Position numbers and translations under genes: made by a program
IMG/VR virus record: IMGVR_UViG_3300032288_002980
Coordinates: 1-44,578 of that record
Source: a virus
Length of the DNA stretch: 44,578 bases
Reading direction: 5' to 3' (one strand)
Shown here: positions 2,212 through 10,478 of the stretch, one piece after another
How positions within the stretch are numbered: the stretch's first letter is position 1
How the letters are laid out: the number at the start of each line of letters is the position of its first letter
The notes under the pieces: generated by a model
Database searches by the model: none
Told to the model about the DNA's origin: nothing
The model's input: only the letters and a program-made list of their open reading frames with translations

Positions 2212-2310
2212 CGTGAGAGCGCAATGGAAGCGCAATTATTTGTTAGGGAGCGTACGGCCCGACCATAAACAGAAGCAAGTAATATGAGGGTTCGATTCCC
2301 TCTCTCACGG
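2212..2310 (+). ncRNA. tRNA-like structured RNA (degenerate or noncanonical tRNA)
   Basis: The 3' part is a textbook T arm: GAGGG, loop TTCGATT, CCCTC (2286-2302). It is followed by TCTCACG, which pairs perfectly over 7 bases with CGTGAGA at 2212-2218 like an acceptor stem. A D-arm-like hairpin, GCGC-AATGGAA-GCGC, lies at 2219-2233. ATTAT (2235-2239) can pair with GTAAT (2279-2283) as an anticodon stem, but the loop between them is 39 bases and begins TTGTTA. The two linker bases after the acceptor stem are missing and the variable loop is only two bases. It is therefore not a normal tRNA. It may be a decayed tRNA, a tRNA with an insertion, or a tRNA mimic. No CCA is encoded. Confidence 0.4.
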
Positions 2311-3531: not shown

Positions 3532-3539
3532 TATTTTTG
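3532..3539 (+). promoter_or_regulatory. -7 promoter element TATTTTTG
   Basis: TATTTTTG fits TAnnTTTG. It lies directly after the terminator T-run and 17 bases before the ATG at 3557. It supports that ATG as the start and argues against the in-frame GTG at 3539, which is part of the promoter itself. Confidence 0.45.
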
Positions 3540-3556
3540 TGTTTCAATACATTGGA

Positions 3557-5542
3557 ATGAACAAGTCCTCATTAGCCCGTGAATACAGGGACAAGTATGG
3601 GAGTGAAATGCCCACAAAGAAACTTGCCCGTATTATGTATTCTGAACATCCGCTCCTTTTCTCACATTTAGAAGATGCAAGAACAACGCTTCGCTACATT
3701 GAGGGAAAGTTGTCGCACAAAGACATAAAGAAGGTGAAAGACTCTCCATATTTCATGGACACGCCTCGCCCTCTCAATCCCTACAACCTTCCGGCAAGTG
3801 ACGAAAAAGAATACGTTCCATACGTTATAGAAGGGCCACAGCGAATTGCGGCCCTTTTTGATGTACATTGTCCCTATCACAGCATAGAAGCTCTCACAGC
3901 GGCCTTAGAATGGCTAAGGGAGCAGAAGCCTACAATGCTTTTGATAGGAGGGGACTTCTTTGATTTCTATGGCCTCTCACGCTTTATGAAAGACCCCGAC
4001 AAGCGTTCTCCTGCCGAGGAAATACGAATAGGCGTGGAATTGCTCAAGGCGCTATTCACGGCCTTGCAGCCCCAGAACGTGATATTTAAGATGGGGAATC
4101 ACGATGAGCGGTTTGAACACTTCCTGTGGCAGAAGATGGGGGAGATGAGTGGGCTACAGGACTTGGAGGAGCTGAAGGAAATAACGCTTGAGAACATCCT
4201 GCGGAAACGGCTGGGGAATAAGTTACCTCTTGACTTCGTGGGGGACAAGAGGATAATTAAGGCCGGAAGCCTGAACATTACGCATGGCCATGAGTTCCCC
4301 TCTGGCATAGCGTCTCCTGTAAACGTGGCAAGGGGATTGTACATGAGAGCAAAAGCCAATGCCATATGCGGACATCACCACAAAAATTCTCTGCATGTAG
4401 AGCAAGATATTAATAGTCAAATGATTACAACGTGGTCTGTGGGCTGTCTTTGCTATTCAGAAGATACGGAGATATTAACTCAAGATGGGTTTAAGTTTTT
4501 TAAAAATGTTTTAGATAGTGACTTGATTGGAGTTTATGATATAGAATCAAACTCAATTAGACTTTCAAAACCACTTGCAAGACAGGAGTATGATTATCAT
4601 GGAGAAATGGTAAACTTTTTTGACAATAAAATAGATTTATTAGTAACTCCAGAACATAAAATGATTTATAAAAATCATTCTGGTAAAAATGCAATATCAG
4701 AAGCGCAATCATTAGCTAAGTCTAATGGAATTTACAATTATTACTCATCTGCAAAATTTCAATCTCTAACATCTTTTAATTCTGATTTGTCTGAACTTTG
4801 TGCATGGATAGTTACCGAAGGTACTATAGATTATGCAAAAGAGAAGTACCCAAGAATATCAATTTATCAGAAAAAAGAAGAGCCTCGTTTGAAATTGGAA
4901 AGTTTAATTCAAAGATTAGGCATTGAGTTTAGTGTCAGTATAGACCAAAGAAACGGAGTTAGTAGATATAGATTATCAAACGAGTCTTCCCGTGAAGTAA
5001 TAGAAAAAATTTGGGGTGGAAATTTTGAAAAAAGAATCCCAAGAAAAATTTTGAATTCAGACTATAATGTTCTTAGTAAAGTTTATGAAACCCTGATTAT
5101 AACAGATGGGCATAGACGAAGTGATAAAAAAAGTCAAAAAGGAACCGATTATTTGCCAACAAAAGACATTGATTTAGCAAATGATTATGCAGAAATTGCC
5201 ATTAAATTAGGATTTACTTGTTACATTAAAAAAGAAATAAGAAATACTAACTACAAAAAAAATTCAACAATATATCTTGTTAGAATTAGAAAATCTCAAG
5301 TAACTCAATGCCGCAATGTTTCTTTTCAAAATTATACTGGGAAAGTATATGATTTTAGTTCAGAAACAGGTTGGCTTGTTGTTAGAAGAAATGGGAAAGT
5401 TTCAATATCAAGCAACTGCGACCTCCACCCCCTCTATATGCCCATTAATTCCTGGAATCACGGGGTAGCCCTCATTACGCTTGACGAGGAAGGGAACGTG
5501 GACGTTCAGAACAAACGAATAAAGAACGGCAGGATTATGTAA
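3557..5542 (+). CDS. Calcineurin-like metallophosphoesterase interrupted by an intein
   Basis: A 661-codon precursor. The host protein (exteins of 298 and 41 residues) carries the metallophosphoesterase motifs in order: DVHCPYH, GGDFFDF, GNHDE, THGHEF and GHHH. These bind two metal ions and hydrolyse phosphoesters. Phage members are often nucleases or phosphatases of DNA metabolism; the substrate is not evident here. The intein occupies residues 299-620, between WSVGCL and CDLHPLYM, just after the last metal motif. Splicing would restore a 339-residue enzyme. The N-terminal 95 residues before the catalytic domain look helical and may bind DNA. The start is ATG 3557, set by the promoter at 3532. 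Confidence 0.85.
   Translation: MNKSSLAREYRDKYGSEMPTKKLARIMYSEHPLLFSHLEDARTTLRYIEGKLSHKDIKKVKDSPYFMDTPRPLNPYNLPASDEKEYVPYVIEGPQRIAALFDVHCPYHSIEALTAALEWLREQKPTMLLIGGDFFDFYGLSRFMKDPDKRSPAEEIRIGVELLKALFTALQPQNVIFKMGNHDERFEHFLWQKMGEMSGLQDLEELKEITLENILRKRLGNKLPLDFVGDKRIIKAGSLNITHGHEFPSGIASPVNVARGLYMRAKANAICGHHHKNSLHVEQDINSQMITTWSVGCLCYSEDTEILTQDGFKFFKNVLDSDLIGVYDIESNSIRLSKPLARQEYDYHGEMVNFFDNKIDLLVTPEHKMIYKNHSGKNAISEAQSLAKSNGIYNYYSSAKFQSLTSFNSDLSELCAWIVTEGTIDYAKEKYPRISIYQKKEEPRLKLESLIQRLGIEFSVSIDQRNGVSRYRLSNESSREVIEKIWGGNFEKRIPRKILNSDYNVLSKVYETLIITDGHRRSDKKSQKGTDYLPTKDIDLANDYAEIAIKLGFTCYIKKEIRNTNYKKNSTIYLVRIRKSQVTQCRNVSFQNYTGKVYDFSSETGWLVVRRNGKVSISSNCDLHPLYMPINSWNHGVALITLDEEGNVDVQNKRIKNGRIM
4451..5416 (+). 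mobile_element. Intein with a LAGLIDADG-type homing endonuclease domain
   Basis: A 322-residue in-frame insertion. It starts with Cys in CYSEDTEILTQDG (splicing block A) and has VTPEHKM (block B with the T-x-x-H motif). It ends YDFSSETGWLVV and RRNGKVSISSN, followed by Cys as the +1 residue. The penultimate residue is Ser instead of the usual His, a variant seen in other inteins with the VVRRNGKV ending. Between the splicing blocks, LCAWIVTEGTI and VYETLIITDG look like the two LAGLIDADG helices of a DOD endonuclease. The insert is far more AT-rich than its host gene (about 25% GC on one sampled line against about 50% in the flank), which indicates recent arrival. Confidence 0.88.
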
Positions 5543-7181: not shown

Positions 7182-7207
7182 TTTTGCGAATGTGAAATAA
7201 GTATTCG

Positions 7208-7215
7208 TATCTTTG
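7208..7215 (+). promoter_or_regulatory. -7 promoter element TATCTTTG of leader RNA 1
   Basis: TATCTTTG has a TTG 21 bases upstream (7184-7186) that could be the -33 element. It ends exactly four bases before the first hairpin of leader RNA 1, the same offset as at the second leader (7575-7582). Confidence 0.6.
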
Positions 7216-7219
7216 CAGA

Positions 7220-7322
7220 GCCGAAAGGCCGCTGGGTAGGAGCAGCGTTTGTAAGATACTTAATGCCCCTTTGTCCGCTTAGTAGAGACTCCTACCTCGA
7301 ACGGCGAACAAAGGGGTTTTTT
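7220..7322 (+). ncRNA. Kissing-loop leader RNA 1 with terminator
   Basis: Hairpin P1 is GCC-GAAA-GGC (7220-7229). It is followed without a linker by P2, CGCTG / CAGCG (7230-7234 with 7243-7247), whose entire 8-base loop is GGTAGGAG. A terminator stem, CCCCTTTGT / ACAAAGGGG (7266-7274 with 7308-7316), is followed by six T. Inside its 33-base loop is CTCCTACC (7289-7296), a perfect complement of the P2 loop. The RNA can therefore form a P2-terminator kissing interaction, or a pseudoknot that competes with a local GTAG/CTAC hairpin in the terminator loop. The same plan recurs at 7587-7713 with unrelated bases. It probably controls read-through into 7352 and beyond. I do not recognise a named RNA class. 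Confidence 0.7.
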
Positions 7323-7358
7323 ATTTTAAAAAATTTAAACAACAAAAAATTATGGTAA
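7263..7358 (+). CDS. Possible 31-codon leader peptide in leader RNA 1
   Basis: ATG 7263 lies three bases before the terminator 5' arm. The frame runs through the whole terminator and stops at 7358, overlapping the start of the 7352 gene. A ribosome on this frame would melt the terminator and could re-initiate at 7352. The peptide itself, which begins MPLCPLSRDSYLE, is not distinctive. The second leader also carries a small frame in the same relation to its terminator and its downstream gene, which is the only reason to list it. Confidence 0.25.
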   Translation: MPLCPLSRDSYLERRTKGFFILKNLNNKKLW

Positions 7359-7558
7359 CAGTTTCAATGAATCACAGTAGGCATGACGATGATGCGAAAT
7401 TAATGTATGAATTAGAACTTATTAAGCACCAAAGGATAAATCATGTTATCCTTATTTTAAAGGACGACTCAATAGAAGACCCAATAGAAGTTTTAGTACC
7501 ATTTGGGAAGTTGGTTGATTTTGTGAAGTCTGCCAACAAAATTCACATTCAAGTGTAA
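7352..7558 (+). CDS. Hypothetical small protein downstream of leader RNA 1
   Basis: A 68-residue protein, probably alpha/beta, of unknown function. A hydrophobic beta-like segment (NHVILILKDDSIEDPIEVLV) occupies the second half and ends in DFVKSANKIHIQV. It is the only gene between the two leader RNAs. A regulatory role in the switch between them is conceivable but not supported by any motif. The ATG follows an A-rich stretch typical of Bacteroidota translation initiation. Confidence 0.5.
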   Translation: MVTVSMNHSRHDDDAKLMYELELIKHQRINHVILILKDDSIEDPIEVLVPFGKLVDFVKSANKIHIQV

Positions 7559-7574
7559 TCAAAAATATTTTTGT

Positions 7575-7582
7575 TAGTTTTG
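7575..7582 (+). promoter_or_regulatory. -7 promoter element TAGTTTTG of leader RNA 2
   Basis: TAGTTTTG fits TAnnTTTG and ends four bases before the first hairpin of leader RNA 2, exactly as for leader RNA 1. No clear -33 element is visible. Confidence 0.5.
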
Positions 7583-7586
7583 TAAC

Positions 7587-7713
7587 GGCGAAAGCCCCCG
7601 ATTGGAACCGGGAAAATTCATTATGAAAAATCTTAAACAAGCCCCTTCCGGCGTACCTGTGCAGTTTGAAATTTCTGCGTTCCAAACAGGGAAACCGGGA
7701 GGGTTTTTGTTTT
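7587..7713 (+). ncRNA. Kissing-loop leader RNA 2 with terminator
   Basis: P1 is GGC-GAAA-GCC (7587-7596), followed at once by P2, CCCG / CGGG (7597-7600 with 7609-7612), with the 8-base loop ATTGGAAC. A terminator-like stem pairs CCCTTCCGG (7643-7651) with CCGGGAGGG (7695-7703) and is followed by TTTTTGTTTT. Inside its loop a hairpin CCTGT / ACAGG (7656-7660 with 7686-7690) surrounds GTTCCAA (7679-7685), the complement of TTGGAAC in the P2 loop. Order, spacing, the GAAA tetraloop and the loop-loop pairing match leader RNA 1 while the bases differ, which is covariation between the two copies. It precedes the replication initiator gene. Confidence 0.7.
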
Positions 7714-7727
7714 ATGGAAAAGCATAA
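7623..7727 (+). CDS. 34-residue small protein or leader peptide in leader RNA 2
   Basis: ATG 7623 opens a 34-codon frame that crosses the terminator of leader RNA 2 and stops at 7727, 14 bases inside the initiator gene. The peptide starts MKNLKQAPSGVPVQFEIS and ends GFLFYGKA. It has balanced composition and reads more like a real protein than chance. It may be translated to couple ribosome movement to terminator opening, or it may be an independent small protein. Confidence 0.35.
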   Translation: MKNLKQAPSGVPVQFEISAFQTGKPGGFLFYGKA

Positions 7728-8616
7728 GAACGAATTTATAAAGCGCACAAAGAGAAGAGATAACTTTGTAATGATTGGTAATGAGGTTATTCAAGATGAC
7801 CGAATAACAATCGAGGCAAGAGGTGTTTTGGTATTTCTTTTGTCTCTACCCCAGGATTGGGTGGTTAGGAAAAATGACCTTCAAAAGAGGTTAAAAGTAA
7901 GCCGAAGAACCATTGATAGATGCTTTGATGAAATGAAGCAATGTGGCTATTTGTGCGAAACAGATTTTGTAAAAAAGGACGGGAAGTTTGACGGAAAGGG
8001 CTACCTTATTTACGATTATTCAATTTTTGGAAACCCTCCTGAAATGTTTTCTACCGATGCTCATAGTGAGCAACGGAGTGACCTCACCGATGCCCAAGGT
8101 GAGCACCGGACCGGTGCTCATGGTGAGCAGCTAACAAAGAACACAGAAATACAACAAAGAACACATTTAAATACACCCCCTATATCCCCCAAGGGGGAAA
8201 GGGAAAATTTTGAAATCAATAATGACCTTATTGATAAAAAAGGATTGGACGATGCTGTTGATTTATGGTTGGAGTATAAGAGGGAGAAAAAGCAAAAATA
8301 TAAAGGGTCTAAGTCCACACAGGTTATGATTAACAATTTGTGGAAGATGTCAAATGGGAATTCTAATCGAGCAATGGAAATTGTAGAATTTTCTATGGGC
8401 AACAACTACTCAGGACTTGTTGAGCCAAGGCAAAGCAAAAATAATTTTGCCTCTAATGCCAACCAGCCATCAAGCATACCCGTAAAGCAGAAGGTTGAAT
8501 ACTACAACACTCGTTGGCCTGATAGAATCTACATCTGCACCGAAGAGCAGTTCAAACAGATTTGCGAAGGCAATCCTGATGAATCCTATGTCGTAAAGCG
8601 TAAATTCTCTGCCTAA
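7714..8616 (+). CDS. Phage replication initiator (O/DnaD-like, winged helix)
   Basis: A 300-residue protein. Residues about 10-100 form a winged helix of the kind seen in phage replication initiators: NEVIQDDRITIEARGVLVFL, LPQDWVVRKNDLQKRL, then SRRTIDRCFDEMKQCGYL. A hydrophilic linker (about 110-160) follows. The C-terminal part has the motif AMEIVEFSMGNNYSGL typical of O-like and DnaD-like phage proteins that contact the helicase. Three 23-base repeats inside the linker-coding DNA (8054-8131) look like the initiator's own binding sites. ATG 7714 was chosen because the upstream in-frame TTG at 7666 lies inside the terminator stem of leader RNA 2. The primase-helicase gene starts at its stop codon. 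Confidence 0.8.
   Translation: MEKHKNEFIKRTKRRDNFVMIGNEVIQDDRITIEARGVLVFLLSLPQDWVVRKNDLQKRLKVSRRTIDRCFDEMKQCGYLCETDFVKKDGKFDGKGYLIYDYSIFGNPPEMFSTDAHSEQRSDLTDAQGEHRTGAHGEQLTKNTEIQQRTHLNTPPISPKGERENFEINNDLIDKKGLDDAVDLWLEYKREKKQKYKGSKSTQVMINNLWKMSNGNSNRAMEIVEFSMGNNYSGLVEPRQSKNNFASNANQPSSIPVKQKVEYYNTRWPDRIYICTEEQFKQICEGNPDESYVVKRKFSA
8054..8131 (+). repeat. Three in-gene iterons, candidate replication origin
   Basis: Three related 21-23-base units lie in the linker-coding part of the initiator gene: CCGATGCTCATAGTGAGCAA (8054), CCGATGCCCAAGGTGAGCAC (8087) and CCGGTGCTCATGGTGAGCAG (8111). Each contains the partial dyad GCTCA-n3-TGAGC. Units 2 and 3 together form a perfect 21-base palindrome at 8100-8120 (arms TGAGCACCGG and CCGGTGCTCA around one A). 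An A-rich, easily melted stretch follows (8132-8185). Iterons plus an AT-rich unwinding region inside the initiator gene is the layout of the lambda origin in gene O. Confidence 0.65.
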
Positions 8617-10478
8617 TGGAAATTAACGGATTTGAAATTGACGAATACAATGTCCACGGAATTAAGCAGGGAGCAACCTCATGGACTTGTCCAAAGTGCA
8701 GCCATACAAGAACGCACAACAAAACCCAAAAGTGTATGTCGGTTTTTTGGGACACTGGCCTCGGACAGTGCAACCATTGTTCCGCCACCATTCAGCTTCA
8801 CACTTACAAAAAAAAATCGGCCATGAATACGCAAAAGATTTATGAAGTTCCTGCTGCAAGGCAAGCAGAAAAGAAAGCATCCGATGCTTTAGCCGAATAT
8901 GTTTTGAAAGAAAGAGGAATCGGCAAGGAGGCTCTTGATAAACTGAAAATCGTTCAAGGCAAAATGTGGATGCCCAAGGTTAAGAAGGAAGTTAGCGTAA
9001 TCGAGTTCCCATACTTTGTGAACGGCCAATGCGTAAATGTTAAATATCGTGGGCCGAATAAGGATTTTATGTTTGAGAAGGGGTGCGAGCTTGTTATGTA
9101 CAACCTTGATAACGTAATGCACGAATCAGAGTGCATCATCGTAGAAGGGGAATACGATGCCGCAGCGTTTGTGGATGCTGGATTTCTGAATGTAACGAGC
9201 GTTCCGAATGGATTTACGCCTCCGAAGCCTGATGGCTCAAGCAGTATCAACCTTTCCTATCTTGACAACTACTATCAATTCTTCGAGAACAAGGAGCGCA
9301 TCTACCTTGCTGTAGATAATGACGAGCCAGGAAATCACGGAAGAGCGGAGTTGATAAGGAGATTTGGCGCTGAGAAATGTTGGAACGTGGATTTTGCAGA
9401 CTGCAAGGATGCTAATGATTACTTGCGGAAATACGGGAAACAGGCTTTGGCCGCCACAATTGCAAACGCAAGACGGATTCCTCTTGAAAACGTGGAAAGC
9501 GTTTATGATTTCCGTGCAGACCTTGAAAACTTTTACATCAATGGCGCACCAAGGGGATTTACTACTGGGATGGAGGGGCTTGACAAAATGTACAGCATCG
9601 AGCCGGGGCAGTACACGATAGTCACTGGGCCTCCGCAAAGCGGGAAAAGTGAGTTTGTGGATTCAATCTGCTTGGGGTATGCCTTGAGATATGGGATGAA
9701 AACAGCCTTTGCATCTGCCGAGAACAAGCCGAACTATCTTCATGCCGATAAAATCCTGCGGAAGATAAATGGGTTTAGGCCGACCAGCACTGACTATCTT
9801 AAGTCTAAAAAATGGAACAAGGCAATAGAGTTTTACTCCGAACACTTTTTCCATGTGGAATTTCGTGATGGGTACAACTTGCAAAAAATTTTAGCCAAGT
9901 TCGAAGAGTTAGTGCACAGAAAGGGCGTAAGGGTTTTTGTGATTGACCCATTCAACAAAGCGAAGCTGAAGGAAAGCGCAAGCAAAAACATAAACGATTA
10001 CACTGCCGACTATCTCATGGAGATTGACACTTTCTGTCGTAAAACAAACAGCATCGTTTATTTGGTCGCCCACCCTACCAAGATGAAAAAGATAGACGGA
10101 ACCAACACCTATCCGATGCCAGATGCCTATGACATCAAGGGTGGAGGCGAAATGTTTGACATGGCCTATCACATTCTTGGACTTATCAGGAACATGGAGG
10201 GAGAGTATGTTGCCGTAAGAACTTTGAAAGTAAAGTTTCAGCATTTAGGAAACTATGGCGAAGAAGGGTATTTCAAGTGGAACATAAATAACGGCAGATA
10301 CGAAACAATAGATTTTGAGCCGAAAGAAGGAGGTCAGATACCGATGCCTGTTTGGAATAACAAGTATTGGCTAAATGAAGAAGAACAAAATGACGAGAAG
10401 TCTCACGAGTTCAGAATTGACAGTTTTGAGAAGGAAAAGTTTTTAGAAGCCATTGATACCAATGAAGCCCCATTCTAA
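8616..10478 (+). CDS. Primase-helicase (T7 gp4 / Twinkle type)
   Basis: A 620-residue bifunctional replication enzyme. The N terminus has a zinc-ribbon with CPKC (about residue 25) and CNHC (about residue 50), as in primases. A TOPRIM domain follows with EGEYDAAAF (about 177) and the metal-binding DNDEPG (about 234). The C-terminal half is a DnaB-like RecA-fold helicase with Walker A GPPQSGKS (about 338), Walker B VFVIDPFN (about 440) and a following motif IVYLVAHPTK. It would unwind DNA and synthesise primers at the phage fork. Its ATG overlaps the stop of the initiator gene by one base, so the two form one operon. Confidence 0.93.
   Translation: MEINGFEIDEYNVHGIKQGATSWTCPKCSHTRTHNKTQKCMSVFWDTGLGQCNHCSATIQLHTYKKKSAMNTQKIYEVPAARQAEKKASDALAEYVLKERGIGKEALDKLKIVQGKMWMPKVKKEVSVIEFPYFVNGQCVNVKYRGPNKDFMFEKGCELVMYNLDNVMHESECIIVEGEYDAAAFVDAGFLNVTSVPNGFTPPKPDGSSSINLSYLDNYYQFFENKERIYLAVDNDEPGNHGRAELIRRFGAEKCWNVDFADCKDANDYLRKYGKQALAATIANARRIPLENVESVYDFRADLENFYINGAPRGFTTGMEGLDKMYSIEPGQYTIVTGPPQSGKSEFVDSICLGYALRYGMKTAFASAENKPNYLHADKILRKINGFRPTSTDYLKSKKWNKAIEFYSEHFFHVEFRDGYNLQKILAKFEELVHRKGVRVFVIDPFNKAKLKESASKNINDYTADYLMEIDTFCRKTNSIVYLVAHPTKMKKIDGTNTYPMPDAYDIKGGGEMFDMAYHILGLIRNMEGEYVAVRTLKVKFQHLGNYGEEGYFKWNINNGRYETIDFEPKEGGQIPMPVWNNKYWLNEEEQNDEKSHEFRIDSFEKEKFLEAIDTNEAPF

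Follow-up and report, generated by a model that had tools for sequence, protein, structure and literature searches.

Phages of Bacteroidota carry leaders, mostly ahead of replication genes, in which a 5' hairpin loop complements the loop of an intrinsic terminator

Introduction

In ColE1 (RNA I/RNA II) and in IncI/IncB, replication is controlled by 7-bp kissing loops between two RNAs, with no partner in a terminator loop. The put element of phage HK022 consists of two hairpins right behind a phage promoter, and its conserved sequence acts on RNA polymerase. Plasmid rep attenuation, as in pT181 and pIP501, combines a terminator in the leader of the replication initiator gene with a separate counter-transcribed antisense RNA. 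CI-type immunity of satellite phage P4 has relatives in N15 and in P1 c4. In the P4 system, short self-complementary leader sequences (CI RNA, seqA–seqC) govern premature transcription termination (PMC4825925).

The leaders described here were identified in an IMG/VR virus record (IMGVR_UViG_3300032288_002980) of 44,578 nt, the whole of which is referred to below as the window, and whose portal and terminase are distantly related to those of Flavobacterium and Cellulophaga phages. As in P4 CI, an untranslated leader RNA lies ahead of phage replication genes. Unlike P4 CI, however, these leaders have a built-in intrinsic terminator, whose own loop forms a 7-bp kiss with a 5' hairpin; they are not known to yield a processed trans RNA, and the host phylum is another one. 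As in pT181 and pIP501, a replication initiator gene has a terminator in its leader, but pairing takes place within one RNA. The 7-bp kissing is the same as in ColE1 and IncI/IncB, but it likewise occurs within one RNA, with the partner in a terminator loop. Two hairpins follow the phage promoter closely, as in HK022 put, whose loops lack a partner in a terminator. The open-access literature yielded no description of such an RNA; attenuators and kissing loops are already known, but a conserved phage class in which a 5' hairpin kisses, within one RNA, the loop of an intrinsic terminator appears to be new.

Results and discussion

Two leaders in one virus record

A sequence-only reading of the window had described two leaders, and both are present, with every coordinate correct to the base; the leaders and the genes directly behind them lie on the plus strand. 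The promoter of copy 1 (7184–7215), assigned from its sequence, family enrichment and the published consensus (PMC7366714), comprises a TTG (7184–7186) and the −7 element TATCTTTG (7208–7215). The spacer CAGA leads to a 5' tetraloop hairpin, GCC-GAAA-GGC (7220–7229; sequence and RNAfold), which is followed by hairpin H1 (7230–7247; sequence, RNAfold and family covariation) with the first kissing loop, GGTAGGAG (7235–7242). The terminator (7266–7326; RNAfold and covariance model R1) consists of a hairpin at 7266–7316 and a U-tract from 7317. Its loop holds CTCCTACC (7289–7296), the complement of GGTAGGAG, and the kissing loop reads A+CUCCUAC (7288–7295). The arm, placed by R1 at 7271–7311, carries a putative bulged-G (sarcin-ricin) motif of AGUA (7281–7284) and GAA (7299–7301), with an upper stem GAG/CUC. 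In copy 2, the −7 element TAGTTTTG (7575–7582; assigned from sequence) is followed by the spacer TAAC, so that both copies have the claimed four bases between promoter element and GAAA hairpin. The hairpin GGC-GAAA-GCC (7587–7596) and H1 (7597–7612) together span 7587–7612 (sequence and RNAfold), and the H1 loop reads A+UUGGAAC (TTGGAAC at 7602–7608). The terminator (7643–7713; RNAfold) has a hairpin at 7643–7703 with a CGUA/GAAA internal loop and a side hairpin GCAG..CUGC, the kissing strand GUUCCAA (GTTCCAA in the DNA, 7679–7685) in its loop, and a U-tract (7704–7713) that abuts the initiator ATG at 7714. A leader ORF of 34 codons (7623–7727) begins behind H1, crosses the terminator and stops beyond this ATG.

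RNAfold reproduced the described secondary structures exactly (z −2.4 for copy 1, −2.3 for copy 2), and loop 1 is complementary to the terminator loop in both copies; the chance of a single match, taken alone, is ~0.001 for copy 1 (8 nt) and ~0.013 for copy 2 (7 nt). Gene calls likewise confirmed the genes said to lie behind the copies, namely a small gene of 68 aa without family match (7352–7558) and the replication initiator gene (HTH/DnaD-like, 7714–8616), which is directly followed by a primase-helicase (8616–10478). The idea of one architecture in different bases needs revision: the architecture is shared, but copy 1 has an AGUA/GAA arm, while copy 2 has a CGUA/GAAA arm, an extra hairpin and the leader ORF, and they are two distinct sub-types, not one RNA. 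Their differences had been taken for covariation within one genome, a claim that fails for the same reason; true covariation is seen across phages. Elsewhere in the window, a metallophosphoesterase gene (3539–5542) is broken by a LAGLIDADG-type, intein-like insert.

The TAnnTTTG element was correctly noted ahead of both leaders, but it is the known −7 promoter element of Bacteroidota, accompanied by TTG about 20 nt upstream, and not part of the RNA (PMC7366714). Both window copies have a −7 element of this Bacteroidota type. Among 72 kissing leaders, 37 have a TTG 18–22 nt upstream, compared with 444 of 3023 TAnnTTTG sites in general (15%), a 3.5-fold enrichment. Since TAnnTTTG is the −7 element, the RNA should start at or just before the first hairpin. 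Among the TAnnTTTG sites scanned on the minus strand of the window, none is placed to transcribe across H1 of either copy; with no TAnnTTTG promoter suitably placed opposite the leaders, control of the pT181/pIP501 type from such an antisense promoter was rejected.

Loop–loop complementarity across the family

One relative of the initiator gene led to another leader, whose loop sequence differs from those of both window copies, and two scans of IMG/VR extended the comparison. In the first, sites were chosen only by the −7 box and GCCGAAAGGC, the kiss not being a criterion, and a 7–9-nt match between the next hairpin loop and the terminator loop occurred in 40 of 59 distinct sites, against 0 for reversed, 0 for complemented, 0 for identical-sequence and 3 for shuffled-loop controls. 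In the second, terminator arms were chosen only by the bulged-G AGUA/GAA motif, and an upstream partner loop of at least 6 nt was present for 38 of 39 arms (controls 0, 0, 0 and 6); at a threshold of at least 7 nt, 30 arms matched against 0 in the controls. The remaining arm (L288) has an 8-nt match by eye, with a weak hairpin.

In an alignment of 19 members, each of the seven kissing pairs had changes at both of its positions, and the kissing covariation score was 0.80 against 0.06–0.10 for slid partners, in a set preselected for perfect matches, the unbiased tests being the scans of 59 sites and 39 arms. Pairs of the terminator stem covary as well. Alignments A2 and A4 were used, the MAFFT alignments A1, A3 and A5 being out of register. 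A chance match is ruled out by the enrichments in the two scans together with this covariation, and the intramolecular loop–loop complementarity is maintained by compensatory change. Two further sites (L196, minus strand, 177; L199, plus strand, 4527) share the promoter and GCCGAAAGGC, but their loops match only weakly and their long terminator is of another kind; they possibly represent another sub-type.

Sub-types of the leader

Across sub-types, the constant features are the kiss, the hairpins, the U-tract and an adjacent start codon. Loops are mostly 8 nt on both sides, with one unpaired base followed by seven paired bases, which is classic kissing geometry, and the loop–loop helix is 7 bp (range 6–9) with a drifting sequence. 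A Shine-Dalgarno-like role of GGUAGGAG was rejected because the loops of other members are unrelated. Terminator arms range from −15 to −28 kcal/mol, a U-tract follows most of them, and the start codon lies 4–9 nt past the U-tract in most of 31 members. With a GC-rich hairpin plus U-tract between promoter and gene, the leaders have the layout of an intrinsic terminator or attenuator. The 5' GAAA hairpin is not constant, being missing in L127, L130, L143 and L163.

The sub-types differ in the terminator arm. Copy 1 and about 30 relatives carry what, by sequence, would be a bulged-G (sarcin-ricin/loop E) motif, with AGUA facing GAA. In this sub-type the motif lies beside a non-canonical position that switches as a unit, U..C alternating with G..A in nearly all of the ~30 relatives, and is followed by a 3-bp stem and the loop. 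In L031, L110, L180 and L195, the motif is replaced by UGAUG/CUGAU, for which a kink-turn was rejected as there is no 3-nt bulge; a tandem G.A loop was preferred by eye. The CGUA/GAAA sub-type with a side hairpin includes window copy 2, L035, L050 and L172, among others.

In the copy-2 sub-type, an ORF typically starts just after H1, remains open over both kissing strand and terminator, and reaches its stop codon beyond the ATG of the gene. This ORF of ~34 codons was free of stops in 15 of 15 leaders, all already selected for carrying it, while 29 of 30 alternative frames contained stops. In L166 it is open as well, although its frame is shifted with respect to the landmarks of the RNA, suggesting that the act of translation counts for more than the peptide made. 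No such ORF is present in two or three leaders that resemble copy 2 (L066/L103, L022).

Distribution and downstream genes

The leader class is present in many viruses of Bacteroidota, including laboratory-grown phages. Elemovirus elemoF (L337, a Flavobacterium phage), in which the leader was located via related portal and terminase genes, has the kissing pair GUGGAGG/CCUCCAC, and Olleya phage Harreka_1 has GUGGUGG/CCACCAC, a double compensatory change within a region of ~71% identity. The pair in elemoA (L341) is UGAGAGC/GCUCUCA, on a different arm, with promoter and downstream sequence conserved; between elemoA and elemoF the whole leader is swapped for another sub-type between conserved flanks, as if cassettes move. 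In the cultured phages, the leader precedes small gene(s) and the replication protein. A blastn search of the window leaders and an L050 leader against cultured phages gave nothing useful. Model R1, built without the elemo and Harreka phages, matched Harreka_1 (E 4e-4) and elemoF (E 0.08) and had no match in 262 kb beyond these two and the window. Among 20 virus records, R1 also found a single copy-1-type leader in each of 17 and no such leader in three.

In a collection of host genomes, the kissing leader was absent from 15 candidate sites, and R1 matched 0 of 395 Bacteroidota genomes, a weak negative, with 16 candidates scored per genome and no positive control. On these counts, a bacterial or prophage origin was rejected, and the class is apparently restricted to phages. 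A known Rfam class was rejected as well: at the curated gathering thresholds of Rfam 15, the window, both leaders and 12 related loci match tRNA only, and the best sub-threshold matches to the leader region are at chance level. One such tRNA match, at window positions 2212–2310 (plus strand, 99 nt, 33.5 bits), has no ARAGORN call and may be a tRNA that is degenerate or interrupted.

Directly behind the leaders, the first one or two genes mostly serve phage replication and belong to several families. For 76 of the 101 leaders, a number that includes related contigs, gene 1 or 2 falls into one cluster with the replication initiators of the window and Elemovirus (single-linkage BLAST). Representatives have matches among initiator, primosomal, DnaD-like, primase and helicase families, and of the other guarded genes tested, most resemble primase, helicase or initiator families. 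Less often, the guarded gene is DNA methylase/ParB-like or encodes an HNH/NUMOD-like endonuclease. In L180 (minus strand, 10272), L098 (plus strand, 9854) and L188 (plus strand, 5028), leaders of the kissing type but with other arms stand before NUMOD4/HNH-like homing endonuclease genes. The proposal that the leaders are attenuators or RNA switches belonging to no named class is supported by dozens more copies without an Rfam match and with replication genes downstream. Copies with compensatory changes, on whose existence that proposal had staked itself, likewise occur by the dozen, in IMG/VR and in cultured Flavobacterium and Olleya phages.

Proposed mechanism and alternatives

Judged by its layout, each element is on balance probably an attenuator that acts in cis, close to the promoter, on the transcription of phage replication genes. 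A terminator hairpin ~100 nt after the promoter shows the exact complement of the 5' hairpin loop, and with a promoter, a strong terminator 100 nt on and a start codon behind it, expression depends on read-through. When the RNA is cut before the 3' arm of the terminator, loop 1 is predicted to pair with the kissing strand in both copies, so that the kiss can form first. The 5' loop would capture its complementary strand on emergence, before the terminator's 3' arm is made, and the arm would then zip round the kiss to give a compact, ribosome-poor terminating structure. By default there would be little read-through and low initiator synthesis, with read-through occurring when the kiss is prevented or the hairpin opened. 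In the copy-2 sub-type, the likely opener would be a ribosome that starts on the leader ORF beside H1 and passes through the terminator into the initiator start codon. In the copy-1 sub-type, an ORF through the terminator is not general, being absent from 28 of 66 leaders, so one trigger does not serve all; here the opener may be a protein, of phage or host, or a further RNA. The free variation of the kissing sequence excludes an outside factor that reads those bases; selection acts on the pairing itself. A kiss-locked terminator, opened by ribosomes in the copy-2 sub-type, is thus the favoured explanation, with a direction and a trigger of the switch that we infer; that some guarded genes (the HNH/NUMOD endonucleases and the methylase) are not replication genes is a counterpoint to it.

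A further counterpoint is that the terminator is stable without the kiss, which need not favour termination and could equally hinder it. This stability is also compatible with antitermination, in which the 5' hairpins and the kiss would act on RNA polymerase in the manner of put, or block closure of the terminator, so that the kiss leads to read-through. The 5' hairpins do lie directly behind the promoter, and for RNA lacking the 3' arm, prediction gives a long helix of loop 1 and the kissing strand that encloses the 5' arm. However, kiss and terminator can coexist in 23 of 28 members by an estimate of linker length against arm geometry that is too crude to decide between the models. The GAAA hairpin is dispensable, and, the bulged-G motif aside, no conserved primary sequence was seen for contact with RNA polymerase; antitermination is accordingly plausible but unlikely.

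The replication genes guarded by the leaders also bring to mind an immunity or copy-number RNA acting in trans, whereby a terminated leader would kiss nascent leaders of the same type and raise termination as genomes multiply, or when a phage with a matching kissing type superinfects. In satellite phage P4, CI RNA controls replication genes by pairing-induced termination (PMC4825925). The kissing sequence differs among related phages, with elemoF, elemoA and Harreka_1 differing at one locus, and the 20 virus records contain at most one copy-1-type leader each. Yet an intramolecular kiss would be much faster than one in trans, and GUAGGAG is common to many phages, so that diversifying selection is not evident, making such a role quite unlikely. 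A broader proposal, tentative and itself unlikely, is that of a phage-specific class with the kiss within an intrinsic terminator, in which the drifting loop would serve as a private code, released leaders kissing, in trans, those nascent leaders that share their code. If true, this code would set genome copy number or exclude superinfecting relatives via control of the replication initiator.

The kiss might instead only compact and protect the 5' end of the mRNA and present a U-rich stretch for stability or translation, with termination incidental. The short distance between U-tract and start codon in most members fits such a 5'-UTR element, but the GC-rich stem and U-run are the hallmark of an intrinsic terminator and are kept across sub-types and in the cultured phages, and this reading is improbable. 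A metabolite riboswitch, to which the conserved non-canonical AGUA/GAA module in a terminator-bearing leader could point, is most improbable, as replacement of the module by UGAUG/CUGAU or CGUA/GAAA elsewhere leaves no constant ligand-binding core, and the class is apparently confined to phages and without an Rfam match.

Conclusion

Phage gene regulation in Bacteroidota is poorly known. The cultured carriers, Elemovirus on Flavobacterium sp. BAL314 and Harreka_1 on Olleya, make the function of the leaders immediately testable, and the loop pair lends itself to clean compensatory mutants and orthogonal variants and may also be useful as a genetic part. The kissing leaders appear to be an undescribed and widespread class of structured RNA that links transcription termination to the replication decision in phages of Bacteroidota.
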